From NCBI RefSeq assembly GCF_964204645.1, contig NC_134030.1, positions 4,813,855 through 4,877,854 on the forward strand: a DNA stretch of 64,000 nucleotides, given 5' to 3'. Below the pieces are notes generated by a model. It had not been told where the DNA came from and made no database searches. It was given only the letters and a program-made list of their open reading frames with translations. Both the position numbers and the translations under genes were made by a program. Source of the stretch: Tubulanus polymorphus (Eukaryota; Nemertea; Palaeonemertea; Tubulaniformes; Tubulanidae). Positions 2,695 to 56,800 of the stretch are shown here, piece by piece (the first letter of the stretch is position 1; each line of letters opens with the position of its first letter).

Positions 2695-2698
2695 ATAT

Positions 2699-7800: not shown

Positions 7801-8200
7801 TACACACCGCCGCTCATGGATTGACCTCCGTTCAATACTGTGATAGTGTCCTTTTTTTCATATTTTTTCGTGCAGATAGTTCATTATGATTCTGGCCGAA
7901 ACAAATGCCAGACATCTTACAGATACATTACGGATGCCTTTCCGTCAATTAAATTCATCTTGTTTCGTATAATTACTGATTTGATACTGTACTTTTGATA
8001 GCAATACTGTAAAATAATATCTCAATTAATACATTAGAATTGGTTGTGTCATCCTGTATTCGTTGTGTCAACACAAAAAATATACATATTTAAATGATGT
8101 AATCGTCGTATTATGTTTATAATGATTTATTTTTCACTTAAAGATAGTTTAGATGAAATGAAAAATGTAAGTGCTGAATAAAGTGATTCTTCCAATAAAT

Positions 8201-34578: not shown

Positions 34579-35643
34579 AAGAAGCTGTGATATCGCATGT
34601 ACACAAATATGCTAGTTTCGATTGTAGCGTTCTCGTCCAAAACCTTCAGAAAACATTGGCGAGCGAAAAAGAGCTGAATGTGAATTTTCGCTTAAACGTT
34701 TAGCCGCAGAATTTGATGTTATTCTAGTATCGACCAGGAATCTGCTGCGGTATGAAAGGTGTTTCACATGTCAGCACACTGTAATTTCTGTACGACAGAA
34801 CCATATAATCATGACATCAGAAACTTTGAAATAAATATATAGATACGAATAAAGAAACGGAAAATTACTCCATTCATTCAAACTTTCAAACCAAGGAAGC
34901 TTCATTCGGTCATCAGTGGCAATTTCAAATCGAGTTTCAATTTGAGGTTGAAAATGTCTCAGAGGGCTTTCAACGCAATAATGTGTATAATGTGTATAAT
35001 GTTATGCATCGAGAAAGATATCGTTCATATGAGTTTTCAACAAGACCATTTAGAAAATTTAGTAAAAGAATCGAAAAATTGCTGCTCATTAAGATACACT
35101 TTTTCATAAATCTTGAAACGAATCAAAGACACAGACCGATCATTCTGACACGATGACAAATTACAAAAAAATACAGAATATATTTTCGCTATGAAAGCAA
35201 CATGGGAGCAGCATGTAGATAGACCAAGTCCAAGTATGAATGAAATTCTGAAAACTATATTGTTCATCATACTGAGTGATTGAAACAAAAACACTGTTAA
35301 GTAATTATAATTCTCTCAGAATGTAGGCCTTACTACAAAAATTCACAATAATCATTGAAATTTCAATAAGTATCGACAAAATAGCACTCCGTCAAATTTT
35401 AAACTATGATGATGAAATCATAAACTGGACCAAGCTCTAGGAAACCATTTCGACTTTCGGTAACTCCTATATTTTCGAAGCAAAATACATTTGCTTCTGG
35501 AGATCTTTTCAAAATCAATTACCCGAGCCTATTTAAATGAGATTTTTCTTATTGAAACATATAACTCAACTTTCGAGTGACCTAGTGTTCGGTGGTTAGA
35601 CTTATCAAACTTGTGTTAATCAAACATTTTAAAACAGATAGTA
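34579..35643. other. Spacer left of the GPCR-methyltransferase array
   Basis: No exon or clear repeat. Near 34980-35000 there are short ATAATGTGT repeats. The last about 70 bases resemble the 5' flank of the other GPCR copies (CGGTGGTTAGACTT and TTTTAAAACAGATAGTA). Confidence 0.45.
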
Positions 35644-36143
35644 ATGCAGCCAAATATAAGCTTTATACGACCCTATTGGGTGAATTTCATCGAGTATTTT
35701 TCACGCAATCCGTCGAGCGAATTGAATCGGTTTCTGTTTCTTTACATTTATCCGATTGTTTTCATTTGCGGACTGACTGGAAACTCGCTGTCGCTGGTCT
35801 TAATGTTCGATCATCGATTTCGCCGTCATTCTTACAGCGCGTATATGGCGGTTTTGGCTATAAGTGACACTGTCTGTTTGGTCGGTTCTTTCATGGCTTC
35901 AATAAATCTAATTCCTACACTTTAAATGGTGGCGTTTTTATACGATTTACAGATGTCAACAAATGCCGTTTACCCGATCATGTATTCTATGCATCTAATT
36001 TAATAAGTTCTTGGATTATCATTTCGAAAACACTAGAAAGATGCTTCGCCGTTGTAAGCATGAATTATGCCGTAAAGTTCTACATATATTGTTTGATGGG
36101 AGCCGAATTCAGGAAAACGCTGAAACAGTGTTTTCGATCATGA
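35644..36143 (+). pseudogene. GPCR copy A, internally deleted pseudogene
   Basis: It starts with the same MQPNISFIRP as the intact copies at 37550 and 47539, and is nearly identical through helix 2. A one-base loss near 35915 (CTAATTCC for CTAATTGCC) shifts the frame. Then about 440 bases are gone: GCCGTTGTAAGCAT joins the end of helix 3 straight to the helix-7 sequence, and the last codons (RKTLKQCFRS, stop) follow. No working receptor can be made. Confidence 0.92.
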
Positions 36144-36485
36144 AAAATATCTCATCGCATTGCACATACACGTATTATAATGGCCGATAAAAGCTATTGC
36201 TAAAACCTAAAACCAAACACAAAAATGCAGCCTGCAGCTAGAATACATTTTAGAGTACCATGTATCAACAAAACCCATTAGCAAGATTGCAAGTTTTAAA
36301 AATGAATACTGCGTCCATTTGATCATCATGATGTCATTGTGGTATAGATAGTCACTACTTTTGGACAGTTCATCAAACTTTAGTAGTCAGTTTAATGGAA
36401 ATAGTGTTGTACCTCGCACATTGATAAGATGCACATTTTACGATTCTCAAAAACAATTGAAAAATAGATCATAACTCGTCATTTG
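36144..36485 (+). repeat. GPCR 3' flank repeat, copy 1 of 5
   Basis: This downstream segment (CAGCCTGCAGCT, GTATCAACAAAACCC, TTTAGTAGTCAGTTTAATGG, ending CGTCATTTGATATCG) recurs after or near each GPCR copy: 38498-38850, 45481-45735, 46117-46485 and 48487-48850. It marks the extent of the repeated GPCR unit. Confidence 0.85.
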
Positions 36486-37549
36486 ATATCGCAGATACGG
36501 AAGCGATAAGCGATAAGGGGCCTCCAGTTGTCGCGAGCCAGCTCGACAAGTCGACATTTCGTGTGACATTTCGATGACAAATTATGTTTTGTTGACCATT
36601 TCCTTATTCCTCCTGCAAATAAATGACGTTTTATATCTGATTTTCCTATAGGTATGCTAAAATCATTCATTTATTGGGCAAACTTTTAGTAAATCTGAGT
36701 TAATATCTAACCTAATTATCATATTTAGATTGAAGATGATGTGCTTTATTTTTTCTTGTATAATATCTGCCTCAGATACATAAAACTTTCACAGAACAAT
36801 GAACTTTTAATTGTCACTATGTCAACTATCCACATTGTTAACTCTAACTAACTTTTCAGCACTGGCCCCAGGTTTATATTTTTTATTTAAATGAGAAGAA
36901 GCATTTATATCGAATTGTTTCATATAAACTTCAAAAATAATTCTATAACATTCTCTCTGGGGATCATAGCTATTATGAATAAAAATTGCTTTATCGAAAT
37001 TTTTTAATCTATAATTTGTTGCATTTCTCCAGTAATTATCAAATTTTTACCCACTCCTATAGAAGTTCTGGTATGGAATGATTCTTTTTTCTTGACACCT
37101 TGCTTACTTTAAAAAATTTACATAATCTAACATTTTAGCACTTTTTAAAGGTTTTTTTCAATTCTTTACTATTTCCTTCAACCTTTCTACATCTGGCGTG
37201 AAAACCTATTTATACCAATACTATTAACTTATGGCAATTTGGGAGCTGTCTTGACTTATCTTTAATATTATTCCCCAATAACTTTGCAAATATACTGTCG
37301 CAGTATATTTCCTAGAGTATACTTTGTTCTATTTTAGTTTATCCGTGAAATTTGCCTCAAAGATCATACAACGGGCAATCTGATTGGTGCCGGTTAAACC
37401 TGCGCACCCAGTCTAGTGTGGCAGGGTCTTGCGCCGTGGCTGAGTGTAGCGACGCCATCGAAGTTCGAATCGCTGCCGGGGAGGATGTCGGTGGTTAGAC
37501 TTGTAGTATACATGGACCAAGTTAACAAAAGATTTTAAAATAGATAGTA
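36486..37549. other. Spacer upstream of GPCR copy B
   Basis: AT-rich sequence repeated at 46490-47538 and lacking a recognisable exon. It contains the tRNA-like element at 37387-37483. Promoter sequence of the receptor is presumably here; ATATACTGTCGCAGTATAT at about 37291 is a notable near-palindrome. Confidence 0.5.
37387..37483 (+). repeat. tRNA-like (SINE-head-like) element before GPCR copy B
   Basis: GTGGCTGAGTGTAGCG resembles the A box of tRNA-Ser/Leu, and AAGTTCGAATCGC resembles a B box, but only about 10 bases separate them, so no anticodon arm exists. Copies precede the other two 3' GPCR copies (45773-45871, 47375-47473) but not pseudogene A. It ends about 70 bases before the start codon, so it may be in the 5' untranslated region. 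Confidence 0.55.
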
Positions 37550-38497
37550 ATGCAGCCAAATATAAGCTTTATACGTCCCCATTGGGTGAATTTCATCGAG
37601 TATTTTTCACGCAATCCGTCGAGCGAATTGAATCGGTTTCTGTTTCTTTACATTTATCCGATTGTTTTCATTTGCGGACTGACTGGAAACTCGCTGTCGC
37701 TGGTCTTAATGTTCGATCATCGATTTCGCCGTCATTCTTACAGCGCGTATATGGCGGTTTTGGCTATAAGTGACACTGTCTGTTTGGTCGGTACTTTCAT
37801 GGCTTCAATAAATCTAATTGCCTACTCTTTAACTGGTAACGTTATTATACGATTTACAAATGTCAACATATGCCGTTTACCCGAACATGTATTCTACGCA
37901 TCTAATTTAATAAGTTCTTGGATTATCGTTTCGATAACACTAGAAAGATGCTTCGCCGTTGTCAGTCCCTTCACTGCCAGAATATTCTGTTCTCGAAAAG
38001 TAGCATGGATTATAACGGCTTCGGTTGTATCACTTTCATTCGCGTTCACTTCTTACGCGGCCGCAATTACCTCGTACGACAGTGAATTCGGTTGCTTCAT
38101 ATCATCATTACGCGGAATGAAGGCGCACTACGCGATCGCCCCGTCCAGTTTCATCTATTCACCGATATGTATCATAGCCTTACTAAACATCATCATAATC
38201 AGATCTTTAACGACGTCGCCGTCGTTAATACAAAGTAATAAAACAAAAATTCACTCGAATAATACCAGGAAAATAACTTTCACCGTTCTCATTGTGTCGA
38301 TAACGTTTATAATTCTGCTCACTCCATCGGCCAGTCTTTGTATTCTTGTGGCGGCTTTACCGAATACACCAGACTTTGCAAACTGGTTAGATACGGCGCA
38401 ATTCATCTTTAGCATAAATTGTGCCGTGAATTTTTACATATATTGTTTGACGGGAGCCGAATTCAGGAAAACGCTGAAACGGTGTTTTCGATCATGA
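37550..38497 (+). CDS. Class A GPCR, copy B, intronless
   Basis: A 315-residue seven-helix receptor with a short N-terminus (possible N-glycosylation at NIS, residues 4-6). Landmarks: GNSLSLVL in helix 1; Asp75 in LAISDTV of helix 2; Cys108 and Cys182 for the helix 3-loop 2 disulfide; ERC (132-134) in place of DRY; Pro259 in helix 6 (LLTPSA); NFYIY (294-298) in place of NPxxY. The tail is very short. The layout fits invertebrate peptide-receptor-like class A families; the ligand is unknown. It is 98-99% identical by eye to the copy at 47539, and both are fully open, which suggests both are still under selection or are very recent. Confidence 0.9.
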   Translation: MQPNISFIRPHWVNFIEYFSRNPSSELNRFLFLYIYPIVFICGLTGNSLSLVLMFDHRFRRHSYSAYMAVLAISDTVCLVGTFMASINLIAYSLTGNVIIRFTNVNICRLPEHVFYASNLISSWIIVSITLERCFAVVSPFTARIFCSRKVAWIITASVVSLSFAFTSYAAAITSYDSEFGCFISSLRGMKAHYAIAPSSFIYSPICIIALLNIIIIRSLTTSPSLIQSNKTKIHSNNTRKITFTVLIVSITFIILLTPSASLCILVAALPNTPDFANWLDTAQFIFSINCAVNFYIYCLTGAEFRKTLKRCFRS

Positions 38498-39681
38498 AAA
38501 GTACCCCATCTAATCACACATATTATACATGTATTATAATGGCTGATAAAAGCATTTGCTAAAACCTAATACATGTACCAAGCACATAATAACAGCCTGC
38601 AGCTGGAATACAAGTATTGTGTATCAATATAAATCCATTAGAAACAGACGCATTTTAAGTTTTAAGATTGCAAGATTTAAAAAAAAATACTGCGTATGAT
38701 TCATGATGGATGTCGAACTAATAGTCAATACTTTTTGGAAGTTCATCAACCTTTAGTCAGTTTAATGAAAATATTGTTGTACACCTCGCACAATACTAAG
38801 ACGCACCTTTTATGATTTTCGAAAATAATTGAAAACATATCATAATTCATCATTTGATAACGAAGACAATGCACGACTTATAGCTGCTTTAATCACATCA
38901 TGGGGCAGTGTAGTAGACCAAGTAGAAATCAAGTTCCGGGAAATATCGTTCAATATCTGAGTGAATCATCAGGTTGCTGAATTCATATTCAAAAATGTTT
39001 TGCTTCCTGAAGACTATATAATACATGACTGTTGGGTTTGGAAGGGACACCAAATTAAGTCAAATCAAATTAAATTCGCCAATCAAATAAATAAGAAGGA
39101 ACATCAAGATGAAGAACGTATACGAAAGAAGAAAGTAGCTATAATCTATATGTGCTAATTAGACAGGAGTGGACTGACCGAAGAACCAAATACTCATATT
39201 CAGAAACCAAATTCCACAGCCGTGAGTTAGAGTTATCTCTGAACTCGGGAGTTGGGCTGGGGGCTGTGTTTTTAAGTGATATGGGTCACCATATTTTTAC
39301 CATACCGAAAGCATATTCAGTATCGTCTGGAAGAAAGGCAGAGCACAATTTCACAAATTTTCAATGTCAATAGAATAAAGATATGGTGACCTTATTATGA
39401 AAATTCTAAATGGAGTGATTAAGGTCACCATATTTCTCTATTTTATTGGCGTTAAAAATTAGTAAAGCTTTGCTCTCTTCAAGACTGACAGACCCTATTG
39501 AAATTGGCGATAACATCATAACCAAAAGTATATTTACCGGGTTCTTATCGCCCAAATCAAACAATAAAGTTCACCATATTTTAATAAAAAATTAACTTGG
39601 CAATGAAATAACCAGAAGCATATATACGATACATTTTTTCTCACTGCGATTAAAGCCGGGCGGGACGCCAGACATGACAAG
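38498..39681. other. Spacer between GPCR copy B and methyltransferase 1
   Basis: It starts with the GPCR 3' flank repeat. 39376-39440 holds an inverted repeat. Small open frames at 38961-39158 and 39152-39373 are preserved in unit 2 only because the whole region is a recent duplicate, so they are not called genes. Confidence 0.5.
39376..39440. repeat. Inverted repeat with ATATGGTGACCTT arms
   Basis: ATATGGTGACCTT at 39381-39393 pairs with AAGGTCACCATAT at 39421-39433, with weaker pairing outward (AGAATAAAG and CTCTATTTTATT). Another GGTCACCATATTTTTACC half-site is at about 39285. Repeated in unit 2 near 49371-49423. Confidence 0.7.
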
Positions 39682-40407
39682 ATGTCTAGTGACACAATAC
39701 GCAAAGAACTTTTGGAAACCGTTCGAAAACTTGTTGGTGAATATCAAAACACCATCATCGAATCGGGAGGTCAGGCTGAGTTAACATTCTGTGGTAAGAA
39801 ATTCGTCACTTTCAACGATGTATGTTTTACTGAAGGTTACGATGACATAGCGCTAAATTTACCAGATGAAACATGCAAAGATGCGAGGGTTCTAGAAATC
39901 GGATGCGGAAATGGTTGTGTGAGCACCATGCATTATCTGCAAAACAAATCCAAGATCAGTTTCATTCTAGCGGTGGATATTAATCCACAAGCTCTAGAAA
40001 ATACTAAAGCGAATTTCGAGCGTTACGGAGTTCCGGGGGAGGTGCGCTATTCAGACGTGTTCCAGGCGATTTCTGAAGATGAAAAGTTCGATTTGGTTTT
40101 TTGGAATGCTCCATTCTTCAACCATACCCCCACCGAGACCGGTGACCTGAAGATTGTCGAAAGAGGATTCATGGATCCCGGTTACGAGGGCATCGGTAGA
40201 TTCATCGCAGGTGCGCGTAAATATCTGAGACCCGGTGGAAATGCGCTTTTTGGTTTTAGTAGCACTTGTGGTCAAATTGACATCCTGGAAGAAAAGGCGA
40301 AAGAAGCAGAAATGCGCCTCGAACGTTTTTGGCATAAAACACTGGTCGTGGAAGCATTTGTCGTAGATTGGGAATTATGGCGAATTCTACCGATTGATAC
40401 CGAGTAA
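39682..40407 (+). CDS. Small-domain SAM-dependent methyltransferase, PrmC/RsmC-like, copy 1
   Basis: The enzyme moves a methyl group from S-adenosylmethionine; the target is unknown. It has 241 residues and no intron. After an N-terminal helical part (1-30) and FCGKKFVTFNDVCFTEGYDD, the SAM-binding motif I is VLEIGCGNG (70-78), the acidic ribose contact is Asp99 in VDINPQA, and the post-motif NAPFF (142-146) stands where PrmC/HemK and RsmC have NPPY/NPPF. The C-terminus has FWHKTLVVEAFVVDWELW. No signal peptide or membrane segment, so it is likely cytosolic. It uniquely has Cys65 where the other copies have Arg. The intronless form and bacterial-type architecture are unlike the intron-rich genes nearby. 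Confidence 0.85.
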   Translation: MSSDTIRKELLETVRKLVGEYQNTIIESGGQAELTFCGKKFVTFNDVCFTEGYDDIALNLPDETCKDARVLEIGCGNGCVSTMHYLQNKSKISFILAVDINPQALENTKANFERYGVPGEVRYSDVFQAISEDEKFDLVFWNAPFFNHTPTETGDLKIVERGFMDPGYEGIGRFIAGARKYLRPGGNALFGFSSTCGQIDILEEKAKEAEMRLERFWHKTLVVEAFVVDWELWRILPIDTE

Positions 40408-41906
40408 GAAACCGAAGTGTAAATGTACCATTTAGTCAAATAACCCGCTTGAAAAAGCTATTTAGTTGCAATATAGAATATGAAATATTTCAAACTGTTG
40501 TATGACTGCATCGTGGCCAATAAGGTACATAGTCACATGAATAGGTTTCATTGTACTAACAATAGTCCAGTCTAGGATTTATGATCGCTTTTGGATTAAA
40601 GTTATGACTGTGCAACTGAGAGACTTACGTACCGGTACCTATGTATATTTTACAAAAACAATCAAGGGTTTGTGGTCTCGCGGCCTATTAGTTTCCTGAT
40701 GAGATATTCAAATTAACCTTATTTATTCTTAATAATATATCATATTATTCATTGGCAATATATGTGTTATTTTTCTGCAAGGCGCCAATTAACTTTCAAT
40801 TCAGTTTTCTCGTTATAATGAGGGTCACGATCCATGGTGCATGACAATGAACAGTCCTGATGATGTCGACCTCTGTGTACCATCATTCACTACTTGACCG
40901 CCGAAACAACAAGGAAACCTTTTTTAGAGATACATCGTTCGTTTGTTTATTTGTTGACTGAGATAGAACATAATGTATTTATACGTATATTCATATGTAC
41001 AAGATTCCCCCGACAATATAAATTTACAATCCAATAAATCTAATAATAATAATCATTATATGATAATAATAATGATTATAATAATAAAGAATTCACAAAA
41101 AGATGATGAGTGCACGTAACCAACAAATGTTACGAAAAAAAACCTACTTCTTACAACACTCGTAAAATAAAATTTATCTCTACAAATAAATTAAGTTATT
41201 TCCCCATAATATCTAAAATGCACTTAGCCATATCAGTGAATATGTTTTACCACATTCAAAATGTACGCAAATACTTCTTGATCCTTTTGATATATGCGTG
41301 CCAAAACAGTTTTCAATTACTTTGAAGCACAGGATAAGACATTACCTTTCAAAAGCGAAATTCTAATTCAGAAATAAGTTAAATACTACCAAATCAGCCA
41401 CAGTTCGGGAAATGGGGTGAGAGCGATGTTGAGAAAAATATACACATCCATCGCAATTCTGAACTCAAACTACATTCAATGAAATGTAGTCCACTCGCGA
41501 TAATCTTATGCCGTTGTATTACATAAAGCACCAAGAGCAATTTTCACAGAATCTCTATACATCATTATATCTAATAATCTATTCGTCAGAACCGTTCGCA
41601 CTTAGTTAACTAGTAATCAAAATATTACCTAATTCGATATTAAACCAGATCTCTTTTTTTTATTTTTGATTACGCTTCATTTTTTCAAATCTTTATAAGA
41701 AGATATAATATAATTTACATAAACGGTGTAGAAACACTATTATCATTACGTTGCTCAGGCATTTCAACATATATACGTATCAAGTTTTTATGTAGGGTTG
41801 ATCGTTCACGCATCTAAAAATATTCCTATAAAATTACAGTAGAGTACTCCATTCATCAAAAAGTCGAGAATTTCATCGTAAGAAAAATCAAAATTAATAG
41901 TGAATT
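40408..41906. other. 3' part of methyltransferase module 1
   Basis: AT-rich sequence without a supported exon; conserved across the four copies mainly because they are recent. A TAATAATAAT microsatellite with internal symmetry lies at about 41038-41093 and differs in length among the copies. Confidence 0.55.
41038..41093 (+). repeat. (TAA)n-type microsatellite with hairpin symmetry
   Basis: TAATAATAATAATCATTATAT and following ATAATAAT runs. The other module copies carry longer runs (near 44480-44527, 51030-51083 and 54483-54535). Confidence 0.85.
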
Positions 41907-42239
41907 ATGAATAGTGAATTATTAGAAAATGTAATAGAAAATCCATTAATAATAAACCCGAAATTTAATGAAATGAATATATTAGATTATCGGTGGTACA
42001 GAAAAACATTTATAGATTATTTCTCGAGTCATGATAAAGAGGACATATTGAAAAAGTTAGATAACTTTAAACCAAAAATAACTTATGCAATGAACTTATT
42101 TGAACTTAAATATGATGATTTAAGAGAATTTTTAAATAAACATCCATCAAGAAATGAAATCGAAAATTATATTCCAAAAATATTTTCAAGAGCTGCGAAT
42201 ACTAAATATAAACTCCCACGTGGCGAGGCTTATTTCTGA
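41907..42239 (+). CDS. Small very AT-rich ORF, unrecognised, unit 1
   Basis: 110 codons rich in N, K, I, E and Y, starting MNSELLENVIENPLIIN and ending KLPRGEAYF. It begins exactly at the border of the methyltransferase module and is preceded by a doubled AATAGTGAATTA. Base composition is well below that of the neighbouring genes. No family was recognised; the composition recalls proteins of AT-rich viruses, bacteria or mobile elements, which is only an inference. The following GGGGGTCTGGGGGCCCTCCC resembles tracts common in invertebrate repeats. Confidence 0.45.
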   Translation: MNSELLENVIENPLIINPKFNEMNILDYRWYRKTFIDYFSSHDKEDILKKLDNFKPKITYAMNLFELKYDDLREFLNKHPSRNEIENYIPKIFSRAANTKYKLPRGEAYF

Positions 42240-43127
42240 AGGGGGTCTGGGGGCCCTCCCCTAGAAAGATTTTGAAAATTCAATCGCCGGAGATGCGTTT
42301 TGGGGCCATTTCACGGTCTCATTCACAGAAGCATGAGAAGCCGCGAGCCAACCACCTAGTCAGAGAACGACGAGCTGCTACGCGGTACAGCGTGCTTTTG
42401 AAAAAAAATTTGTTAAGCAAAAAAGTGGGGCGGCTTTGGCCGCCCCTGCCGCCCCTGTTCCGACGGCCCTGACTGGTGCTATGGCAACGCTGGCAACAGG
42501 TGTTCTTTTATACATCAAAAAACGTCAGTTACAATTCGTCCTGAACAAGATATACGTAACAAGAATAACACGGTTTTTTTCATTTACCAAGGGTTAGTCG
42601 TTTGTATTAGTACACGAGCAACTTTTATTAACGAATATTTAAAGCTTCCATTTGACTATTTCAAAATATGCATGTCAAAAATAGAGCACTTAGTTTTTAC
42701 CCTGAGTTGGTTTCCATACACCTCCTTTCCTGTCTGGATGGGCGACCCTCAGTCCTTGCTCCAAGTCATCATCAGCTTTTCTAAATGTTTTCCATAAGTC
42801 CCTACCGCCTGGAATGGAAAGAATGGAAAAAATGAATGAATGAAATATGTCAACAGGATAAGAACCAACGCAAGTTTTTGCTACGTGTGAGATTTGTGAA
42901 GCCAATATTTCCACCACCCCAACTAGTTCTGATTGACCTCATTTCTTTTATTAATGATACACTCGAGAAACGTGAAATCCCTTCTCGCCGGTGAGATCAT
43001 CGGCTGATGTCGGAGTTATAGCTGCTGTTACACATAAATTATTGAATGAATATAAAAATTCCTAATAATACGATAATTTTTAATTCTGACTGCGATTAAA
43101 GCCGGGCGGGACGCCAGACGTGACAAG
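42240..43127. other. Spacer between the AT-rich ORF and methyltransferase 2
   Basis: No supported gene. On the minus strand, 42808-42701 is an open 108-base segment bounded by AG and GT (GGRDLWKTFRKADDDLEQG within it) that could be an orphan exon relic. The equivalent in unit 2 has lost the AG. The rest looks like decayed repeat. Confidence 0.4.
42701..42808 (-). pseudogene. Possible orphan exon relic
   Basis: The minus strand has a CATTCCAG acceptor, an open 36-codon segment rich in charged residues (DLWKTFRKADDDLEQG, AHPDRKGGVWKP) and a GTAAAA donor. No partner exons were found. It may be the remnant of a former gene or of a retroelement. Confidence 0.3.
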
Positions 43128-43853
43128 ATGTCTAGTGATACAACACGCAAACAACTTTTGGAAACCGTTCGAAAACTTGTTGGTGAATATCAAAACACGA
43201 TCATCGAATCGGGAGGTCAGGCTGAGTTCACATTCTGTGGTAAGAAATTCGTCACTTTCACCGATGTATGTTTTACTGAAGGTTACGATGACATAGCGCT
43301 AAATTTACCAGATGAAACACGCAAAGATGCGAGGGTTCTAGAAATCGGATGCGGAAATGGTTGTGTGAGCACCATACATTATCTGCAAAACAAATCCAAG
43401 ATCAGTTTCATTCTAGCGATGGATATCAATCCACAAGCTTTAGAAAATACTAAAGCGAATTTCGAGCGTTACGGAGTTCCAGGGGAGGTGCGCTATTCAG
43501 ACGTGTTCCAGTCGATTTCTGAAGATGAAAAGTTCGATTTGATTTTCTGGAATGTTCCATTCTTTAACCAGACCCCCACCGAGACCGGTGACCTGAAGAT
43601 TGTCGAAAGAGGATTCATCGATCCCGGTTACGAGGGCATCGGTAGATTCATCGCAGGTGCGCGTAGATATCTGAGACCCGGTGGAAATGCGTTTTTTGGT
43701 TTTAGTAGCGCTTGTGGTCAAATTGACATCCTGGAAGAAAAGGCGAAAGAAGCAGAAATGCGCCTCGAACGTTTTTGGCATAAAACACTGGTCGTGGAAA
43801 CATTTGTCGTAGATTGGGAATTATGGCTAATTCTAAAGATTGATACCGAATAA
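43128..43853 (+). CDS. Small-domain SAM-dependent methyltransferase, PrmC/RsmC-like, copy 2
   Basis: 241 codons, open, intronless, same motifs as copy 1 (VLEIGCGNG, an acidic residue in MDINPQA, and NVPFF in place of NAPFF). Copies 2 and 4 share NVPFFNQ, the change RKQ near the start, and VETFVVDWELW, and so form one subtype; copies 1 and 3 form the other. This copy alone ends LILKIDTE. The Ala/Val difference lies in the substrate-side motif and could affect specificity, which is an inference. Confidence 0.85.
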   Translation: MSSDTTRKQLLETVRKLVGEYQNTIIESGGQAEFTFCGKKFVTFTDVCFTEGYDDIALNLPDETRKDARVLEIGCGNGCVSTIHYLQNKSKISFILAMDINPQALENTKANFERYGVPGEVRYSDVFQSISEDEKFDLIFWNVPFFNQTPTETGDLKIVERGFIDPGYEGIGRFIAGARRYLRPGGNAFFGFSSACGQIDILEEKAKEAEMRLERFWHKTLVVETFVVDWELWLILKIDTE

Positions 43854-45936
43854 GAAACCGAAGTCAAAATGTACCAAATAACCCGCATGAAAAACAACAT
43901 CTAGTTGCAATATAGAATATGAAATATTTAAACTGTTGTATGACTTCATCGTGGCCAATAAGGCACACAGTCACATGAATAGGTTTCATTGTACTAACAA
44001 TAGTCCAGTCTAGGATTTGTGATCGCTTTTGGATTAAAGTTATGACTGTGCAACTGAGAGACTTACGTACCGGTACCTATGTATATTTTACAAAAACAAT
44101 CAAGGGTTTGTGGTCTCGCGGCCTATTAGTTTCCTGATGAAATATTCAAATTATTTTTATTGATTCTTAATAATATATCATATTATTCATTGGCAATATA
44201 TGTGTTATTTTTTACAAGGCGCCAATTAACTTTCGATTTAGTTTTCTCGTTATAATGAGGGTCACGATCCATGGTGCATGACAATGAACAGTCCTGATGA
44301 CGTCGACCTCTGTGTACCATCATTCACTACTTGACCGCCGAAACAACAAGGAAACCTTTTTTAGAGATACATCGTTCGTTTGTTTATTTGTTGACTGAGA
44401 TAGAACATAATGTATTTATACGTATATTAATATGTACAAGATTCACCCGACAATATAAATTTACAATCAAATAAATCTAATAATAATAATTATTATATAA
44501 TAATAATAATAATGATAATAATAATAAAGAATTCACAAAAAGATGATGAGTGCACGTAACCAACAAATGTTACGAATAAAAACCTACTTCTTACAACACT
44601 CGCAAAATAAAATTTATCTCTACAAATAAATTAAGTTATTTCCCCATAATATCTAAAATGCACTTAGCCATATCAGTGAATATGTTTTACCACATTCAAA
44701 ATGTACGCAAATACTTCTTGATCCTTTTGATATATGCGTGCCAAAATAGTTTTCAATTACTTTGAAGCACAGGATAAGACATTACCTTTCAAAAGCGAAA
44801 TTCTAATTCAGAAATAAGTTAAATACTACCAAATCAGCCACAGTTCGGGAAATGGGGTGAGAGCGATGTTGAGAAAAATATACACATCCATCGCAATTCT
44901 GAACTCAAACTACATTCAATGAAATGTAGTCCACTCGCGATAATCTTATGCCGTTGTATTACATAAAGCACCAAGAGCAATTTTCACAGAATCTCTATAC
45001 ATCATTATATCTAATAATCTATTCATCAGAACCGTTTGCACTTAGTTAACTAGTAATCAAAATATTACCTAATTCGATTTTAAACCAGATCTCTTTTTTT
45101 TCATTTTTGATTACGCTTCATTTTTTCAAATCTTTATAAGAAGATATAATATAGTTTACATATACGGTGTAGAAACACTATTATCATTACGTTGCTCAGG
45201 CATTTCAACATATATACGTATCAAGTTTTTATGTAGGGTTGATCGTTCACGCATCCAAAAATATTCCTATAAAATTACAGTAGAGTACTTCATTCATCAA
45301 AAAGTCGAGAATTTCATCGTAAGAAAAATCAAAATAAATAGTGAATTATACATTATGATATTATTTTCTGTCTAGAAAATTATTCGGTACAAAAATTACG
45401 CGACTTAAATTATGTTCATCATTTTCTTATTTTTAAACAGCCACCATTATGTAAAATCTAACTTTGAGCAAAATGCAAAAGTGTATCAACAAAACCCGAA
45501 AGCAACGGAGACGTTTTAGATTTTAAGATTGCAAGATTTAAAAATGAATACTGCGTTCATTTGATCATCATGATGTCATTGTGGTATGAAATAGTCACTA
45601 CTTATGGACAGTTCATCAAACTTTAGTAGTCAGTTCAATGGAAATAGTGTTGTACCTCGCACATTGATAAGATGCACATTTTACGATTCTCAAAAACAAT
45701 TGAAAAATAGATCATAACTCGTCATTTGATATCGAAACTTGCCTCAGAGATCATACAACAGGAAATCTGATTGGTGCCGGTTAAACCTGCGCACCCAGTC
45801 TAGTGTGGCAGGGTCTTGCGCCGTGGCTGAGTGTAGCGATGCCATCGAAGTTCGAATCGCTGCCGAGGAGGATGTCGGTGGTTAGACTTGTAGTATACAT
45901 GGACCAAGTTAACAAAAGATTTTAAAACAGATAGTA
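43854..45936. other. 3' part of module 2 and the unit 1/unit 2 junction
   Basis: Module sequence runs to 45349. Then come about 130 bases shared with 55358-55489, the duplication breakpoint at 45481, an orphan GPCR 3' flank (45481-45735) and a tRNA-like element (45773-45871). No exon. Confidence 0.6.
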
Positions 45937-46116
45937 ATGCAGCCAAATATTAGCTTTATACGACCCTATTGGGTGAATTTCATCGAGTATTTTTCACGCA
46001 ATCCGTCGAGCGAATTGAATCGGTTTTTGTTTCTTTATATTTATCCGATTGTTTTTATTTGCGGACTGACTGGAAACTCGCTGTCGTTGGTCTTGAAACA
46101 GTGTTTTCGATCATGA
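45937..46116 (+). pseudogene. GPCR copy with body deleted, open 59-codon remnant
   Basis: The first 53 codons match the intact receptors (MQPNISFIRP to SLSLVL) and then, without frame loss, the sequence jumps to the final codons (KQCFRS, stop). Helices 2-7 are missing. The remaining frame would give a short peptide with a single membrane helix. It is almost surely a deletion product, but it keeps the start codon, frame and upstream tRNA-like element, so it could be expressed. Confidence 0.85.
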
Positions 46117-47538
46117 AAAATATCTCATCGCATTGCACATACACGTAATATAATGGTCGATAAAAACCTATTGCTAAAACCTAAAACCAATCACAAAAAT
46201 ACAGCCTGCAGCTAGAATACATTTTAGAGTACCATGTATCAACAAAACCCATTAGCAACGGACACGTTTTAGGTTTTAAGATTGCAAGATTTAAAAATAA
46301 ATACTGCGTCCATTTGATGTCATTGTGGTATGAAATAGTCACTACTTTTGGACAGTTCATCAAACTTTAGTAGTCAGTTTAATGGAAATAGTGTTGTACC
46401 TCGCACATTGATAAGATGCACATTTTACGATTCTCAAAAACAATTGAAAAATAGATCATAACTCGTCATTTGATATCGAAGATACGGAAGCGATTATCGA
46501 TAAGGGGCCTCCAGTTGTCGCGAGCCAGCTCGACAAGTCGACATTTCGTGTGACATTTGGATGACAAATTATGTTTTGTTGACCATTTCATTATTCCTCC
46601 TGCAAATAAATGACGTTTTATATCTGATTTTCCTATAGGTATGCTGAAATCATTCATTTATTGGGCAAACTTTTAGTAAATCTGAGTTAATATCTAACCT
46701 AATTATCATATTTAGATTGAAGATGATGTGCTTTATTTTTTCTTGTATAATATCTGCCTCAGATACATAAAACTTTCACAGAACAATGAACTTTTAATTG
46801 TCACTATGTCAACTATCCACATGGTAAACTCTAACCAACTTTTGAGCACTGGCCCCAGGATTATATTTTTTATTTGAATGAGTAGAAGCATTTATATCGA
46901 ATTGTTTCATATAAACTTCAAAAATAATTCTATAACATTCTCTCTGGGGATCATAGCTATTATGAATAAAAATTGCTTTATCGAATTTTTTTTTAATCTA
47001 TAATTTGTTGCATTTCTCCAGTAATTATCAAATTTTTACCTACTCCTATAGAAATTTTGGTATTGAATGATTCTTTTTTCTTGACACCTTGCTTACTTAA
47101 AAAAATGTACATAATCTAACATTTTAGCACTTTTTAAAGGTTTTTTTCAATTCTTTACTATTTCCTTCAACCTTTCTACATCTGGCGTGAAAACCTATTT
47201 ATACCAATACTATTAACTTATGGCAATTTGGGAGCTGTCTTGACTTATCTTTAATATTATTCCCCAATAACTTTGCAAATATACTGTCGCAGTATATTTC
47301 CTAGAGTATACTTTGTTCTATTTTAGTTTATCCGTGAAATTTGCCTCAAAGATCATACAACGGGCAATCTGATTGGTGCCGGTTAAACCTGCGCACCCAG
47401 TCTAGTGTGGCAGGGTCTTGCGCCGTGGCTGAGTGTAGCGACGCCATCGAAGTTCGAATCGCTGCCGGGGAGGATGTCGGTGGTTAGACTTGTAGTATAC
47501 ATGGACCAAGTTAACAAAAGATTTTAAAATAGATAGTA
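46117..47538. other. Spacer upstream of GPCR copy C
   Basis: Repeats 36144-37549: GPCR 3' flank copy (46117-46485), AT-rich sequence, and a tRNA-like element (47375-47473). No exon seen. Confidence 0.55.
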
Positions 47539-48486
47539 ATGCAGCCAAATATAAGCTTTATACGTCCCCATTGGGTGAATTTCATCGAGTATTTTTCACG
47601 CAATCCGTCGAGCGAATTGAATCGGTTTCTGTTTCTTTACATTTATCCGATTGTTTTCATTTGCGGACTGACTGGAAACTCGCTGTCGCTGGTCTTAATG
47701 TTCGATCATCGATTTCGCCGTCATTCTTACAGTGCGTATATGGCGGTTTTGGCTATAAGTGACACTGTCTGTTTGGTCGGTACTTTCATGGCTTCAATAA
47801 ATCTAATTGCCTACTCTTTAACTGGTGACGTTATTATACGATTTACAGATGTCAACAAATGCCGTTTACCCGAACATGTATTCTATGCATCTAATTTAAT
47901 AAGTTCTTGGATTATCGTTTCGATAACACTAGAAAGATGCTTCGCCGTTGTCAGTCCCTTCACTGCCAGAATATTCTGTTCTCGAAAAGTAGCATGGATT
48001 ATTACGGCTTCGGTTGTATCATTTTCATTCGCATTCACTTCTTACGCGGCCGCAATTACCTCGTACGACAGTGAATTCGGTTGCTTCATATCATCATTAC
48101 GCGGAATGAAGGCGCACTACGCGATCGCCCCGTCCAGTTTCATCTATTCACCGATATGTATCATAGCCTTACTGAACATCATCATAATCAGATCTTTAAC
48201 GACGTCGCCGTCGTTAATACAAAGTAATAAAACAAAACTTCACTCGAATAATACCAGGAAAATAACTTTCACCGTTCTCATTGTGTCGATAACGTTTATA
48301 ATTCTGCTCACTCCATCGGCCAGTCTTTGTATTCTTGTGGCGGCTTTACCGAATACACCAGACTTTGCAAACTGGTTAGATACGGCGCAATTCATCTTTA
48401 GCATAAATTGTGCCGTGAATTTTTACATATATTGTTTGACGGGAGCCGAATTCAGGAAAACGCTGAAACAGTGTTTTCGATCATGA
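47539..48486 (+). CDS. Class A GPCR, copy C, intronless
   Basis: 315 codons, almost identical to copy B. Differences include Asp97 and Asp104 for Asn, Lys107 for Ile (NKCRLPEH), Phe161 for Leu, Leu234 for Ile, and Gln311 for Arg. Several of these lie in outer loop 1 just before Cys108, a region that often shapes ligand binding. All class A landmarks (Asp75, ERC, Pro259, NFYIY) are kept. Confidence 0.9.
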   Translation: MQPNISFIRPHWVNFIEYFSRNPSSELNRFLFLYIYPIVFICGLTGNSLSLVLMFDHRFRRHSYSAYMAVLAISDTVCLVGTFMASINLIAYSLTGDVIIRFTDVNKCRLPEHVFYASNLISSWIIVSITLERCFAVVSPFTARIFCSRKVAWIITASVVSFSFAFTSYAAAITSYDSEFGCFISSLRGMKAHYAIAPSSFIYSPICIIALLNIIIIRSLTTSPSLIQSNKTKLHSNNTRKITFTVLIVSITFIILLTPSASLCILVAALPNTPDFANWLDTAQFIFSINCAVNFYIYCLTGAEFRKTLKQCFRS

Positions 48487-49671
48487 ATAGTACCCCATCT
48501 AATCACACATATTATACATGTATTATAATGGCTGATAAAAGCATTTGCTAAAACCTAATACATGTACCAAGCACATAATAACAGCCTGCAGCTGGAATAC
48601 AAGTATTGTGTATCAATATAAATCCATTAGAAACAGACGCATTTTAAGTTTTAAGATTGCAAGATTTAAAAAAAAAATACTGCGTATGATTCATGATGGA
48701 TGTCGAACTAATAGTCAATACTTTTTGGAAGTTAATCAACCTTTAGTCAGTTTAATGAAAATATTGTTGTACACCTCGCACAATACTAAGACGCACCTTT
48801 TATGATTTTCGAAAATAATTGAAAACATATCATAATTCATCATTTGATAACGAAGACAATGCACGACTTATAGCTGCTTTAATCACATCATGGGGCAGTG
48901 TAGTAGACCAAGTAGAAATCAAGTTCCGGGAAATATCGTTCAATATCTGAGTGAATCATCAGGTTGCTGAATTCATATTCAAAAATGTTTTGCTTCCTGA
49001 CGACTATATAATACATGACTGTTGGGTTTGGAAGGGACACCAAATTAAGTCAAATCAAATTAAATTCGCCAATCAAATAAATAAGAAGGAACATCAAGAT
49101 GAAGAACGTATACGAAAGAAGAAAGTAGCTATAATCTATATGTGCTAATTAGACAGGAGTGGACTGACCGAAGAACCAAATACTCATATTCAGAAACCAA
49201 ATTCCACAGCCGTGAGTTAGAGTTATCTCTGAACTCGGGAGTTGGGCTGGGGGCTGTGTTTTTAAGTGATTCGGGTCACCATATTTTTACCATACCGAAA
49301 GCATATTCAGTATCGTCTGGAAGAAAGGCAGAGCACAATTTCACAAATTTTCAATGTCAATAGAATAAAGATATGGTGACCTTATTATGAAAATTCTGAA
49401 TGGAGTGATTAAGGTCACCATATTTCTCTATTTTATTGGCGTTAAAAATTAGTAAAGCTGTGCTCTCTTCCAGACTGACAGACCCTATTGAAATTGGCGA
49501 TAACATCATAACCAAAAGTATATTTACCGGGTTCTTATCGCCCAAATCAAACATTAAAGTTCACCATATTTTCATAAAAAATTAACTTGGCAATGAAATA
49601 ACCAGAAGCATATATACGATACATTTTTTCTCACTGCGATTAAAGCCGGGCGGGACGCCAGACGTGACAAG
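48487..49671. other. Spacer between GPCR copy C and methyltransferase 3
   Basis: Near-identical to 38498-39681, with the same GPCR 3' flank and the same inverted repeat (about 49371-49423). No gene is supported. Confidence 0.55.
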
Positions 49672-50397
49672 ATGTCTAGTGACACAATACGCAAAGAACT
49701 TTTGGAAACCGCTCGAAAACTTGTTGGTGAATATCAAAACACGATCATCGAATCGGGAGGTCAGGCTGAGTTCACATTCTGTGGTAAGAAATTCGTCACT
49801 TTCAACGATGTATGTTTTACTGAAGGTTACGATGACATAGCGCTAAATTTACCAGATGAAACACGCAAAGATGCGAGGGTTCTAGAAATCGGATGCGGAA
49901 ATGGTTGTGTGAGCACCATGCATTATCTGCAAAACAAATCCAAGATCAGTTTCATTCTAGCGGTGGATATCAATCCACAAGCTTTAGAAAATACTAAAGC
50001 GAATTTCGAGCGTTACGGAGTTCCGGGGGAGGTGCGCTATTCAGACGTGTTCCAGGCGATTTCTGAAGATGAAAAGTTCGATTTGGTTTTTTGGAATGCT
50101 CCATTCTTCAACCATACCCCCACCGAGACCGGTGACCTGAAGATTGTCGAAAGAGGATTCATCGATCCCGGTTATGAGGGCATCGGTAGATTCATCGCAG
50201 GTGCGCGTAAATATCTGAGACCCGGTGGAAATGCGCTTTTTGGTTTTAGTAGCACTTGTGGTCAAATTGACATCCTGGAAGAAAAGGCGAAAGAAGCAGA
50301 AATGTGCCTCGAACGTTTTTGGCATAAAACACTGGTCGTGGAAGCATTTGTCGTAGATTGGGAATTATGGCGAATTCTACCGATTGATACCGAGTAA
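49672..50397 (+). CDS. Small-domain SAM-dependent methyltransferase, PrmC/RsmC-like, copy 3
   Basis: 241 open codons, the counterpart of copy 1 (NAPFFNH, VEAFVVDWELW). It has Arg65 as in copies 2 and 4, Ala14 for Val, and Cys212 for Arg near the C-terminus. Motif I and the ribose-contact Asp are unchanged. Confidence 0.85.
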   Translation: MSSDTIRKELLETARKLVGEYQNTIIESGGQAEFTFCGKKFVTFNDVCFTEGYDDIALNLPDETRKDARVLEIGCGNGCVSTMHYLQNKSKISFILAVDINPQALENTKANFERYGVPGEVRYSDVFQAISEDEKFDLVFWNAPFFNHTPTETGDLKIVERGFIDPGYEGIGRFIAGARKYLRPGGNALFGFSSTCGQIDILEEKAKEAEMCLERFWHKTLVVEAFVVDWELWRILPIDTE

Positions 50398-51903
50398 GAA
50401 ACCGAAGTGTAAATGTACCATTTAGTCAAATAACCCGCTTGAAAAAGCTATTTAGTTGCAATATAGAATATGAAATATTTCAAACTGTTGTATGACTGCA
50501 TCGTGGCCAATAAGGTACATAGTCACATGAATAGGTTTCATTGTACTAACAATAGTCCAGTCTAGGATTTATGATCGCTTTTGGATTAAAGTTATGACTG
50601 TGCAACTGAGAGACTTACGTACCGGTACCTATGTATATTTTACAAAAACAATCAAGGGTTTGTGGTCTCGCGGCCTATTAGTTTCCTGATGAAATATTCA
50701 AATTAACCTTATTGATTCTTAATAATATATCATATTATTCATTGGCAATATATGTGTTATTTTTCTTCAAGGCGCCAATTAACTTTCAATTCAGTTTTCT
50801 CGTTATAATGAGGGTCACGATCCATGGTGCATGACAATGAACAGTCCTGATGATGTCGACCTCTGTGTACCATCATTCACTACTTGACCGCCGAAACAAC
50901 AAGGAAACCTTTTTTAGAGATACATCGTTCGTTTGTTTATTTGTTGACTGAGATAGAACATAATGTATTTATACGTATATTAATATGTACAAGATTCACC
51001 CGACAATATAAATTTACAATCCAATAAATCTAATAATAATAATTATTATATAATAATAATAATAATAATGATAATAATAATAAAGAATTCACAAAAAGAT
51101 GATGAGTGCACGTAACCAACAAATGTTACGAATAAAAACCTACTTCTTACAACACTCGCAAAATAAAATTTATCTCTACAAATAAATTAAGTTATTTCCC
51201 CATAATATCTAAAATGCACTTAGCAATATCAGTGAATATGTTTTACCACATTCAAAATGTACGCAAATACTTCTTGATCCTTTTGATATATGCGTGCCAA
51301 AACAGTTTTCAATTACTTTGAAGCACAGGATAAGACATTACCTTTCAAAAGCGAAATTCTAATTCAGAAATAAGTTAAATACTACCAAATCAGCCACAGT
51401 TCGGGAAATGGGTTGAGAGCGATGTTGAGAAAAATATACACATCCATCGCAATTCTGAACTCAAACTACATTCAATGAAATGTAGTCCACTCGCGATAAT
51501 CTTATGCCGTTGTATTACATAAAGCACCAAGAGCAATTTTCACAGAATCTCTATACATCATTATATCTAATAATCTATTCGTCAGAACCGTTCGCAGTTA
51601 GTTAACTAGTAATCAAAATATTACCTAATTCGATATTAAACCAGATCTCTTTTTTTTCATTTTTGATTACGCTTCATTTTTTCAAATCTTTATAAGAAGA
51701 TATAATATAGTTTACATATACGGTGTAGAAACACTATTATCATTACGTTGCTCAGGCATTTCAACATATATACGTATCAAGTTTTTATGTAGGGTTGATC
51801 GTTCACGCATCCAAAAATATTCCTATAAAATTACAGTAGAGTACTCCATTCATCAAAAAGTCGAGAATTTCATCGTAAGAAAAATCAAAATTAATAGTGA
51901 ATT
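50398..51903. other. 3' part of methyltransferase module 3
   Basis: Counterpart of 40408-41906, with a longer TAA microsatellite near 51030-51083. No exon. Confidence 0.55.
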
Positions 51904-52236
51904 GTGAATAGTGAATTATTAGAAAATGTAATAGAAAATCCATTAATAATAAACCCGAAATTTAATGAAATGAATATATTAGATTATCGGTGGTATAGAA
52001 AAACATTTATAGATTATTTCTCGAGTCATGATAAAGGGGACATATTGAAAAAGTTAGATAACTTTAAACCAAAAATAACTTATGCAATGAACTTATTTGA
52101 ACTTAAATATGATGATTTAAGAGAATTTTTAAATAAACATCCATCAAGAAATGAAATCGAAAATTATATTCCAAAAATATTTTCAAGAGCTGCGTATACT
52201 AAATATAAACTCCCACGTGGCGAGGCTTATTTCTGA
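51904..52236 (+). pseudogene. AT-rich ORF, unit 2 copy with start codon changed to GTG
   Basis: Differs from 41907-42239 at very few codons (Gly for Glu near residue 46, Tyr for Asn near 98), but the ATG is GTG here. In a nuclear gene this removes the start, and the next in-frame Met is at codon 23. Either the frame was never coding or this copy has been lost. Confidence 0.5.
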
Positions 52237-53126
52237 AGGGGGTCTGGGGGCCCTCCCCTAGAATGATTTTGAAAATTCAATCGCCGGAGATGCGTTTTGG
52301 GGCCATTTCACGGTCTCATTCACAGAAGCATGAGAAGCCGCGAGCCAACCACCTAGTCAGAGAACGACGAGCTGCTACGCGGTACAGCGTGCTTTTGAAA
52401 AAAAAATTTGTTAAGCAAAAAAGTGGGGCGGCTTTGGCCGCCCCTGCCGCCCCTGTTCCGACGGCCCTGACTGGTGCTATGGCAACGCTGGCAACAGGTG
52501 TTCTTTTATACATCAAAACAACGTCAGTTACAATTCGTCCTGAACAAGATATCCGTAACAAGAATAACACGGTTTTTTTCATTTACCAAGGGTTAGTCGT
52601 TTGTATTAGTACACGAGCAACTTTTATTAACGAATATTTAAAGCTTCCATTTGACTATTTCAAAATATGCATGTCAAAAATAGAGCACTTAGTTTTTACC
52701 CTGAGTTGGTTTCCATACACCTCCTTTCCTGTCTGGGTGGGCGACCCTCAGTCCTTGCTTCAAGTCATCATCAACTTTTCTAAATGTTTTCCATAAGTCC
52801 CTACCGCCGGGAATGGAAAGAATGGAAAAAATGAATGAATGAAATATGTCAACAGGATAAGAACCAACGCAAGTTTTTGCTACGTGTGAGATTTGTGAAG
52901 CCAATATTTCCACCACCCCAACTAGTTCTGATTGACCTCATTTCTTTTATTAATGATACACTCGAGAAACGTGAAATCCCTTCTCGCCGGTGAGATCATC
53001 GGCTGATGTCGGAGTTATAGCTGCTGTTACACATAAATTATTGAATGAATATAAAAATTCCTAATAATACGATAATTTTTAATTCTGACTGCGATTAAAG
53101 CCGGGTGGGACGCCAGACGTGACAAG
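52237..53126. other. Spacer between the AT-rich ORF copy and methyltransferase 4
   Basis: Counterpart of 42240-43127. A 177-codon plus-strand frame at 52263-52796 exists only because of small indels relative to unit 1 and is not taken as a gene. Confidence 0.5.
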
Positions 53127-53852
53127 ATGTCTAGTGACACAACACGCAAACAACTTTTGGAAACCGTTCGAAAACTTGTTGGTGAATATCAAAACACGAT
53201 CATCGAATCGGGAGGTCAGGCTGAGTTAACATTCTGTGGTAAGAAATTCGTCACTTTCACCGATGTATGTTTTACTGAAGGTTACGATGATGTAGCGCTA
53301 AATCTACCAGATGAAACCCGCAAAGATGCGAGGGTTCTAGAAATCGGATGCGGAAATGGTTGTGTGAGCACCATACATTATCTGCAAAACAAATCCAAGA
53401 TCAGTTTCATTCTAGCGGTGGATATCAATCCACAAGCTTTAGAAAATACTAAAGCGAATTTCGAGCGTTACGGAGTTTCGGGGGAGGTGCGCTATTCAGA
53501 CGTGTTCCAGTCGATTTCTGAAGATAAAAAGTTCGATTTGGTTTTCTGGAATGTTCCATTCTTTAACCAGACCCCCACCGAGACCGGTGACCTGAAGATT
53601 GTCGAAAGAGGATTCATCGATCCCGGTTACGAGGGCATCGGTAGATTCATCGCAGGTGCGCGTAGATATCTGAGACCCGGTGGAAATGCGTTTTTTTGTT
53701 TCAGTAGCGCTTGTGGTCAAATTGACATCCTGGAAGAAAAGGCGAAAGAAGCAGAAATGCGCCTCGAACGTTTTTGGCATAAAACACTGGTCGTGGAAAC
53801 ATTTGTCGTAGATTGGGAATTATGGCGAATTCTACCGATTGATACCGAATAA
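53127..53852 (+). CDS. Small-domain SAM-dependent methyltransferase, PrmC/RsmC-like, copy 4
   Basis: 241 open codons, the counterpart of copy 2 (RKQ near the start, NVPFFNQ, VETFVVDWELW) but with the copy 1/3 ending WRILPIDTE, a mix that may reflect gene conversion. It has private changes: Ser118 for Pro, Lys134 for Glu, Cys191 for Gly, and Val56 for Ile. SAM motifs are intact. Confidence 0.85.
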   Translation: MSSDTTRKQLLETVRKLVGEYQNTIIESGGQAELTFCGKKFVTFTDVCFTEGYDDVALNLPDETRKDARVLEIGCGNGCVSTIHYLQNKSKISFILAVDINPQALENTKANFERYGVSGEVRYSDVFQSISEDKKFDLVFWNVPFFNQTPTETGDLKIVERGFIDPGYEGIGRFIAGARRYLRPGGNAFFCFSSACGQIDILEEKAKEAEMRLERFWHKTLVVETFVVDWELWRILPIDTE

Positions 53853-56800
53853 GAAACCGAAGTCAAAATGTACCAAATAACCCGCTTGAAAAACAACATT
53901 TAGTTGCAATATAGAATATGAAATATTTCAAACTGTTGTATGACTTCATCGTGGCCAATAAGGTACACAGTCACATGAATAGGTTTCATTGTACTAACAA
54001 TAGACCAGTCTAGGATTTATGCTTCATCGCTTTTGGATTAAAGTTATGACTGTGCAACTGAGAGACTTACGTACCGGTACCTATGTATATTTTACAAAAA
54101 CAATCAAGGGTTTGTGGTCTCGCGGCCTATTAGTTTCCTGATGAAATATTCAAATTAACCTTATTGATTCTTAATAATATATCATATTATTCATTGGCAA
54201 TATATGTGTTATTTTTCTTCAAGGCGCCAATTAACTTTCAATTCAGTTTTCTCGTTATAATGAGGGTCACGATCCATGGTGCATGACAATGAACAGTCCT
54301 GATGACGTAGACCTCTGTGTACCATCATTCACTTCTTGAACGCCGAAACAACAAGGAAACCTTTTTTAGAGATACATCGTTCGTTTGTTTATTTGTTGAC
54401 TGAGATAGAACATAATGTATTTATACGTATATTAATATGTACAAGATTCACCCGACAATATAAATTTACAATCCAATAAATCTAATAATAATAATTATTA
54501 TATAATAATAATAATAATAATGATAATAATAATAAAGAATTCACAAAAAGATGATGAGTGCACGTAACCAACAAATGTTACGAATAAAAACCTACTTCTT
54601 ACAACACTCGCAAAATAAAATTTATCTCTACAAATAAATTAAGTTATTTCCCCATAATATCTAAAATGCACTTAGCAATATCAGTGAATATGTTTTACCA
54701 CATTCAAAATGTACGCAAATACTTCTTGATCCTTTTGATATATGCGTGCCAAAACAGTTTTCAATTACTTTGAAGCACAGGATAAGACATTACCTTTCAA
54801 AAGCGAAATTCTAATTCAGAAATAAGTTAAATACTACCAAATCAGTCACAGTTCGGGAAATTGGGTGAGAGCGATGTTGAGAAAAATATACACATCCATC
54901 GCAATTCAAAACTCAAACTACATTCAATGAAATGTAGTCCACTCGCGATAATCTTATGCCGTTGTATTACATAAAGCACCAAGAGCAATTTTCACAGAAT
55001 CTCTATACATCATTATATCTAATAATCTATTCATCAGAACCGTTCGCAGTTAGTTAACTAGTAATCAAAATATTACCTAATTCGATTTTTAACCAGATCT
55101 CTTTTTTTTCATTTTTGATTACGCTTCATTTTTTCAAATCTTTATAAGAAGATATAATATAGTTTACATATACGGTGTAGAAACACTATTATCATTACGT
55201 TGCTCAGGCATTTCAACATATATACGTATCAAGTTTTTATGTAGGGTTGATCGTTCACGCATCCAAAAATATTCCTATAAAATTACAGTAGAGTGCTTCA
55301 TTCATCAAAAAGTCGAGAATTTCATCGTAAGAAAAATCAAAATAAATAGTGAATTATACATTATGATATTATTTTCTGTCTAGAAAATCATTCGGTACAA
55401 AAATTACGCGACTTAAATTATGTTCATCATTTTCTTATTTTCAAACAGCCACCATTATGTAAAATCTAACACTGAGCAAAATGCAAAAGTTGACACATGT
55501 AATCAATTACTACTATTACAAAATAAATCTCAAAATGCAATATCGAATTCTGTTTGTTCTCGTAGAGAATGAAAATTAAGTTTCGTTTGACTGTTGCTAT
55601 TATGTGTGTGCCAGTTCAACTAATTGCTTTCAATCCTATGAAACCATAAAATGCGAAAGATTTTCATGTTTGTTTTTCCTCATAATCTTTCCTTAAAGCA
55701 TTGATTTTGTTTGATGTTGCAAATTTGATCATTCACTTGTTTGGTATTTAGGTATGAAACATGTTGTGGTATTCAAATAAACTATGAACAGTAGACTCTG
55801 CTTGCCACTGATCTCACAGGATCAAGGAATTCTCTCGCGAGGTATCAACTCCGGGTTTGACCGAGTCTTCTATATTAGGAATTCTCGGATGAATAAAATT
55901 TGTTACCTCAATCGCATTCAATACTTCAAATTGAGGAATTTTCACAGATGATTCGAATTTGAATAAGTAGGTCATAGATGGCAATACAATATATTCTAAT
56001 CTTTTTTTCAACATGATATCTGCCAAAATATACAATACAGAAATCAATTACTGGCACCGGAAGAATGAAGAATAGCGAATCCTTCGTTGTACATTTTCAT
56101 GTACCGCGCGTAAAAAAAATCTATGCACGTTTCAAATTAAGATATACATTTATTTAAACACAATAGTAAATTCGAAGTATCTTTTTATCATTGAAGTACG
56201 TAAGTATATTATGCCAGTTTCACACGCACACAAACTGTACAAAGATATATTCATAGAGAAATTCATGAGATTTCGTTCCTGTCTTCGCTTCATTCGTTTT
56301 CAATTTGTTAATTACAGTTGCAATGTTTTGTGCACATCTGAATGCTCGCACTGCTAAGAGAGCCAGGCGTAATAATGAATGTAGGTGTCATAAGTTGTGA
56401 GTTCACATTCTAAACAACAACAATAACAGAGCAATACGGCAATGATACCGAAATACTTTTTGAAATATTTCTTCAAGCGACTGAAAGCCAAAAGCAGACA
56501 TACTACGTGTGCATGATTGGAAATTTCAACTTTTAATCTACAAGTTTATGACTAAAACGTCAACTTGCAGAGTGTCAAATAAATTGTTGTTTCACGTGAA
56601 CATCATTCTTACACCTCTTAGCATCTATAGACAGTAAAACATGCGTCTATAATCATCCCCCATCATTCATAGATGGAAAGAGTATCAACTGTAATTTATT
56701 CAATAGCAGTTTTTTAAACTATATACAATCTATATATTGTCATAGCGACGAATTAAACAAGAATACATACAACTTAGCGCGAAATCAATAGCATAGCGCT

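Follow-up and report, generated by a model that had tools for sequence, protein, structure and literature searches.

Two adjacent units carry a receptor gene and two methyltransferase genes

The window analysed here is a stretch of 64,000 nucleotides of Tubulanus polymorphus DNA (C6:4813855-4877854, in a genome of 268 Mb and 77 contigs). A self-BLAST of the window gave a single long collinear match in direct orientation between positions 36121-45482 and 46094-55490, 98.04% identical over 9406 columns, which for a length of 9.4 kb is far above chance. Each unit holds one open GPCR gene of 315 codons and two open methyltransferase (MTase) genes of 241 codons, all of them intronless:

36121-45482, plus strand: unit 1 of the tandem duplication, 98.04% identical to 46094-55490
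37550-38497, plus strand: GPCR copy 1, 315 amino acids, intronless, predicted class A (rhodopsin) orphan (PF00001, E=3.5e-14)
39682-40407, plus strand: MTase A1, 241 amino acids, intronless, N-x-P-F class-I SAM methyltransferase (PF05175, E=7e-15)
43128-43853, plus strand: MTase B1, 93% amino acid identity to A1
46094-55490, plus strand: unit 2 of the tandem duplication (same 98.04% match), with the extra bases in 13 of the 14 indels
47539-48486, plus strand: GPCR copy 2, 315 amino acids, 98% identical to copy 1
49672-50397, plus strand: MTase A2, 98% amino acid identity to A1
53127-53852, plus strand: MTase B2, 96% amino acid identity to B1

From unit 1 to unit 2 the coding sequences are displaced by 9989 (GPCR), 9990 (MTase A) and 9999 (MTase B) nucleotides. 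The first-pass annotation had described two units, each with one intact GPCR and two intact MTases, at near-constant offsets of 9,989-9,999; the self-match, the six full open frames and the recomputed offsets confirm this observation. The units are adjacent and in the same orientation, and their identity runs through the non-coding DNA (1.37% divergence), as in a tandem segmental duplication.

The methyltransferase blocks duplicated before the units

The MTase genes lie in longer repeat blocks, which are also related within a unit:

39620-41923, plus strand: 2.3-kb MTase repeat block A1 (A-B identity 96-97% by BLAST)
43065-45365: MTase repeat block B1, partner of the A1 block
49610-51920: MTase repeat block A2, partner of the A1 block
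53064-55373: MTase repeat block B2, partner of the A1 block

Divergence is 1.2% between A1 and A2, 1.8% between B1 and B2, and 2.5-3.2% between A and B blocks. The site patterns of the four blocks set A1 and A2 apart from B1 and B2 at 33 sites, with conflict at 3, which indicates that the A/B duplication is the older event and preceded that of the units. The same 33:3 pattern rules out conversion between the A and B blocks, none being detectable. The clean orthology of the units, together with their low non-coding divergence, bears out the earlier description of the tandem duplication as young.

The units are separated by a spacer of 612 bp built from rearranged pieces of the receptor and its flank, and a truncated receptor lies on the left of unit 1:

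45482-46094, plus strand: spacer, a copy of the GPCR 3' flank (45482-45734) followed by a GPCR 5' piece encoding amino acids 1-53 (45734-46094)
35589-36495, plus strand: truncated GPCR remnant, 93% identical to the GPCR 5' part and 76% identical to the GPCR 3' flank

The spacer pieces are 97.1% identical to 36283-36491 and 96.1% identical to 37347-37707, all of their sources lying within 1.6 kb of the start of unit 1; by eye, the three spacer junctions have 0-1 nt in common with these sources. In the left-hand remnant, a 5' piece (amino acids 1-139) is joined, at about position 36057, to the diverged 3' end of a GPCR with its flank. Another GPCR-MTase cassette, the third, is found 3.5-8 kb beyond the left edge of the window (C6:4807137-4809976, minus strand); it is inverted and matches the units at 94-97% identity. 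Its MTase gene is intact, and its GPCR gene is frameshifted by a 38-nt deletion near the N-terminus.

The open frames are probably under purifying selection

The two units were aligned and their coding and non-coding differences were compared, as the first-pass annotation had proposed. The 6953 aligned non-coding sites contain all 14 indels, whereas the 2400 coding sites differ by 36 substitutions and no indel (P=0.016, or P=0.05 when frame-breaking indels alone are counted). Pooled over the three gene pairs, there were 21 non-synonymous and 15 synonymous changes, that is, a dN/dS of 0.40 (P=0.007). By gene pair, the values were 0.36 for the GPCR (11 nucleotide and 6 amino acid differences), 0.34 for MTase A (9 and 5) and 0.46 for MTase B (16 and 9). 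Since dN was not significantly lower than the non-coding divergence (P=0.25), the case for constraint leans mainly on dS and on the indels. In simulated neutral copies the six frames remained open with a probability of 0.28 when substitutions alone were considered, and of 0.012 when the non-coding indel rate was added, on the assumption that two in three indels break the frame.

The dN/dS of 0.40 and the lack of coding indels make purifying selection on the frames probable, on evidence that is modest. It had been argued that six open frames are unusual for neutral copies unless the event is very recent. At 1.4% non-coding divergence they are only mildly surprising, as recency explains a good part of their preservation; the low dN/dS and the simulation with indels indicate that constraint contributes as well.

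The receptor belongs to a large intronless family

The receptor scores 53.3 bits with the class A (rhodopsin) profile 7tm_1, against a cut-off of 30.5. When the peptide-type label of the first-pass annotation was checked, the best solved relatives, CCK-A (1e-7), CXCR4 and the NPFF receptors, matched at only 30-35 bits, a distant likeness, and by sequence the receptor is classed as an orphan of class A. The nearest independent paralogue is an intact gene on C2 (85% amino acid identity, dS about 0.6, dN/dS 0.12-0.14), with no MTase in the surrounding 10 kb. Two genome-wide searches with loose criteria returned 1717 and 2676 candidate intronless class-A receptors, which often lie in tandem arrays, for example nine at C7:15.348-15.365 Mb. 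The head-to-tail copies, the high identity that includes non-coding DNA and the arrays across the genome are those of the tandem or lineage-specific expansions of intronless class-A GPCRs in other invertebrates; unlike these, the block described here includes two copies of an unrelated enzyme gene, and its breakpoint is complex.

The methyltransferases form a family of prokaryotic type

About 25 intronless and mostly open genes of the MTase family are found across the chromosomes, with a cluster on C8. The nearest independent paralogue of the genes in the window is on C4 (72% amino acid identity, dS about 0.6), with no GPCR in the surrounding 10 kb. The AlphaFold2 model of A1 (mean pLDDT 93.4) matches class-I SAM methyltransferase folds with Z of about 21, and the SAM-binding glycine motif E-I-G-C-G-x-G is invariant across the animal set. 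Motif IV reads W-N/H-x-P-F/Y in most members and is followed by a variable loop.

The previous assignment of these proteins as PrmC/RsmC-like is correct for the fold, which they share, and fails for the motif and the curated cut-offs. Compared with PrmC/HemK, they have N-A/V-P-F rather than N-P-P-Y and score 50 bits against 199 (TIGR03534); they also fall below the cut-offs for RsmC (NF007023, 45 bits against 295) and for HemK2/MTQ2, that is N6AMT1 (TIGR00537, 61 bits against 87). With the N5-glutamine methyltransferases HemK2/N6AMT1 and PrmC they share the class-I fold (Z 19-21) and a weak sequence match; they differ in motif IV (W-N/H-x-P-F/Y versus N-P-P-Y) and score far under the curated cut-offs. 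The closest solved fold is that of the carbamoyl N-methyltransferase Asc-Orf2 (PDB 9l4q; Z 21.3, rmsd 3.0 over 201 residues), at a very low identity of 17% and with a Z that ties with HemK2/N6AMT1; Asc-Orf2 is also matched by the sequence profile, weakly (E=9e-6).

Uncharacterised N-x-P-F methyltransferases of Patescibacteria, archaea, Streptomyces and Xenorhabdus are about 30-40% identical to the animal proteins, the best matches extending over most of the protein length. The motifs FW-N-x-P-F, D-P-x-Y and G-F-S are common to both, and the animal copies are set apart by a small number of additional residues near positions 88-95. When these relatives are included in a tree, the animal copies fall into a single group with strong support. 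The Xenorhabdus and Actinoplanes relatives, which are those checked, sit among genes of secondary-metabolism type, the neighbours of the Xenorhabdus copy being DegT aminotransferase, Gfo/Idh dehydrogenase, inositol phosphatase and GNAT genes. A viral origin was rejected, as the IMG/VR matches were weak, partial and mostly limited to residues 55-140. A horizontal origin of the animal MTases is plausible, and their substrates are probably small metabolites. A broader scenario, in which a prokaryotic MTase of natural-product type was acquired horizontally, expanded to about 25 intronless genes with diversifying substrate loops and became linked at some loci to chemoreceptor-like GPCRs that sense the methylated products, is very improbable as a whole.

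Receptor and enzyme are most likely accidental neighbours

The first-pass annotation had also proposed that receptor and enzymes form a single amplified cassette that moves as a whole, with a hint of shared function. This part was not supported: the nearest paralogues stand alone, the genes have duplicated separately and other adjacencies occur at the frequency expected by chance. At the C6 locus itself, MTases were duplicated without the receptor (A and B) and receptor pieces without an MTase. Among 20 other MTase matches, searched with 1.5-kb flanks, a receptor was nearby at C7 alone; 0.33-0.6 such loci were expected, so that the one observed is not significant (P=0.28-0.45, from rough receptor densities). 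This locus (C7:562158-565143) has the order MTase - GPCR - MTase on one strand, with a GPCR of a different subfamily that contains one in-frame stop and lies 190-270 bp upstream of an MTase. That the C7 GPCR is, as on C6, directly upstream of a same-strand MTase counts against chance linkage, which is nevertheless the likely account; the C6 cassette most likely consists of accidental neighbours.

A functional cassette, in which the ligand is made or modified by the MTase, or the receptor is the molecule modified, and selection holds the pair and raises its dosage, might have explained why each of the three C6 cassettes has its GPCR immediately upstream of a same-strand MTase, why a different GPCR has the same position on C7, and why five of five C6 MTases are open. 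We consider this hardly credible, as the sister genes, on C2 for the GPCR and on C4 for the MTase, sit apart, the two genes duplicate independently at C6, the receptors are broken in the inverted cassette and at C7, and GPCRs are near MTases no more often than by chance. Selection for dosage or novelty on the MTases alone, with the GPCR as a passenger under loss, is unlikely. In its favour, the five C6 MTases are intact and their family is expanded, with a variable loop after motif IV, while the receptor copies comprise two intact genes, one frameshifted gene and fragments. It does not agree with the intactness of GPCR copies 1 and 2 and their dN/dS of 0.36, nor with the strong constraint on the receptor relative to the C2 copy.

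As the sequence comes from one assembly, two alleles of a single unit could have been placed in tandem (retained haplotype); the divergence of 1.4% could be allelic, being within the heterozygosity of many invertebrates. Such an artefact is improbable: the two flanks do not simply meet at the junction, which consists of rearranged pieces of unit 1; the spacer differs from the left-hand remnant, so that it does not represent a second allele there; the inverted cassette and the independent A and B copies exist in addition; and no N runs occur in the window. Read from this one assembly, the locus is very probably an ordinary tandem segmental duplication, real and recent.

The origin of the locus is thus very probably a recent local segmental duplication in tandem, with genes that were co-amplified by adjacency and are each probably constrained separately. 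Two intronless genes, one for an orphan class-A GPCR and one for an MTase of small-molecule type, would have become neighbours, after which the MTase block would have duplicated beside itself to give A and B, now 2.5-3.2% apart. At about this divergence the GPCR-MTase cassette would have been copied, in inverted orientation, about 40 kb away, and the 9.4-kb GPCR-A-B block would have been copied head to tail last (1.4% non-coding divergence). The spacer may have arisen when repair replication switched templates and then went on to copy the entire unit: its three breakpoints, which jump back and forth within 1.6 kb of the start of unit 1 and have hardly any sequence in common, fit serial template switching. 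The receptor would be kept as a member of a very large, tandemly expanded intronless GPCR family, and the MTases as members of the N-x-P-F/Y family of prokaryotic type with its about 25 copies.

A joint function of GPCR and MTase is not needed to explain the locus. Their co-amplification can be attributed to the adjoining position of the genes and to a region that is locally unstable, as judged from the third, inverted cassette and the duplicated ATP-grasp neighbours (see below). The locus is a clear case of amplification through adjacency, in which receptor and enzyme genes can be duplicated together without necessarily having a common role. The MTase family is a more interesting by-product than the duplication itself: these are enzymes of prokaryotic type expanded in an animal, with the nearest solved structure coming from natural-product biosynthesis, and may merit a study of their own.

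Neighbouring region

ATP-grasp ligase-like genes (PF13535) form a tandem array at 2695-7842 of the window and at C6:4795037-4798588. Five regional matches are more than 80% identical; one match is partial (C6:4816570-4817106) and one has an in-frame stop. A metabolic gene cluster made of the ATP-grasp array, the MTase array and a sulfotransferase was considered and rejected as a general rule, as ATP-grasp paralogues on C3, C7 and C9 lie away from other MTase loci; the flanks of the prokaryotic MTase loci contain no significant ATP-grasp relative. At C6 about 4799.6-4804.0 kb (window -14286 to -9906), a stretch of 2231 bp that holds 503-bp inverted repeats is repeated in tandem at 100% identity, which reflects either a very recent event or a transposon. 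Within the window, positions 26988-27477 are a tandem repeat with a unit of about 29 bases and about 91% identity, and an open frame at 132-1142 on the minus strand resembles, by eye, a fragment of a LINE endonuclease/reverse transcriptase.
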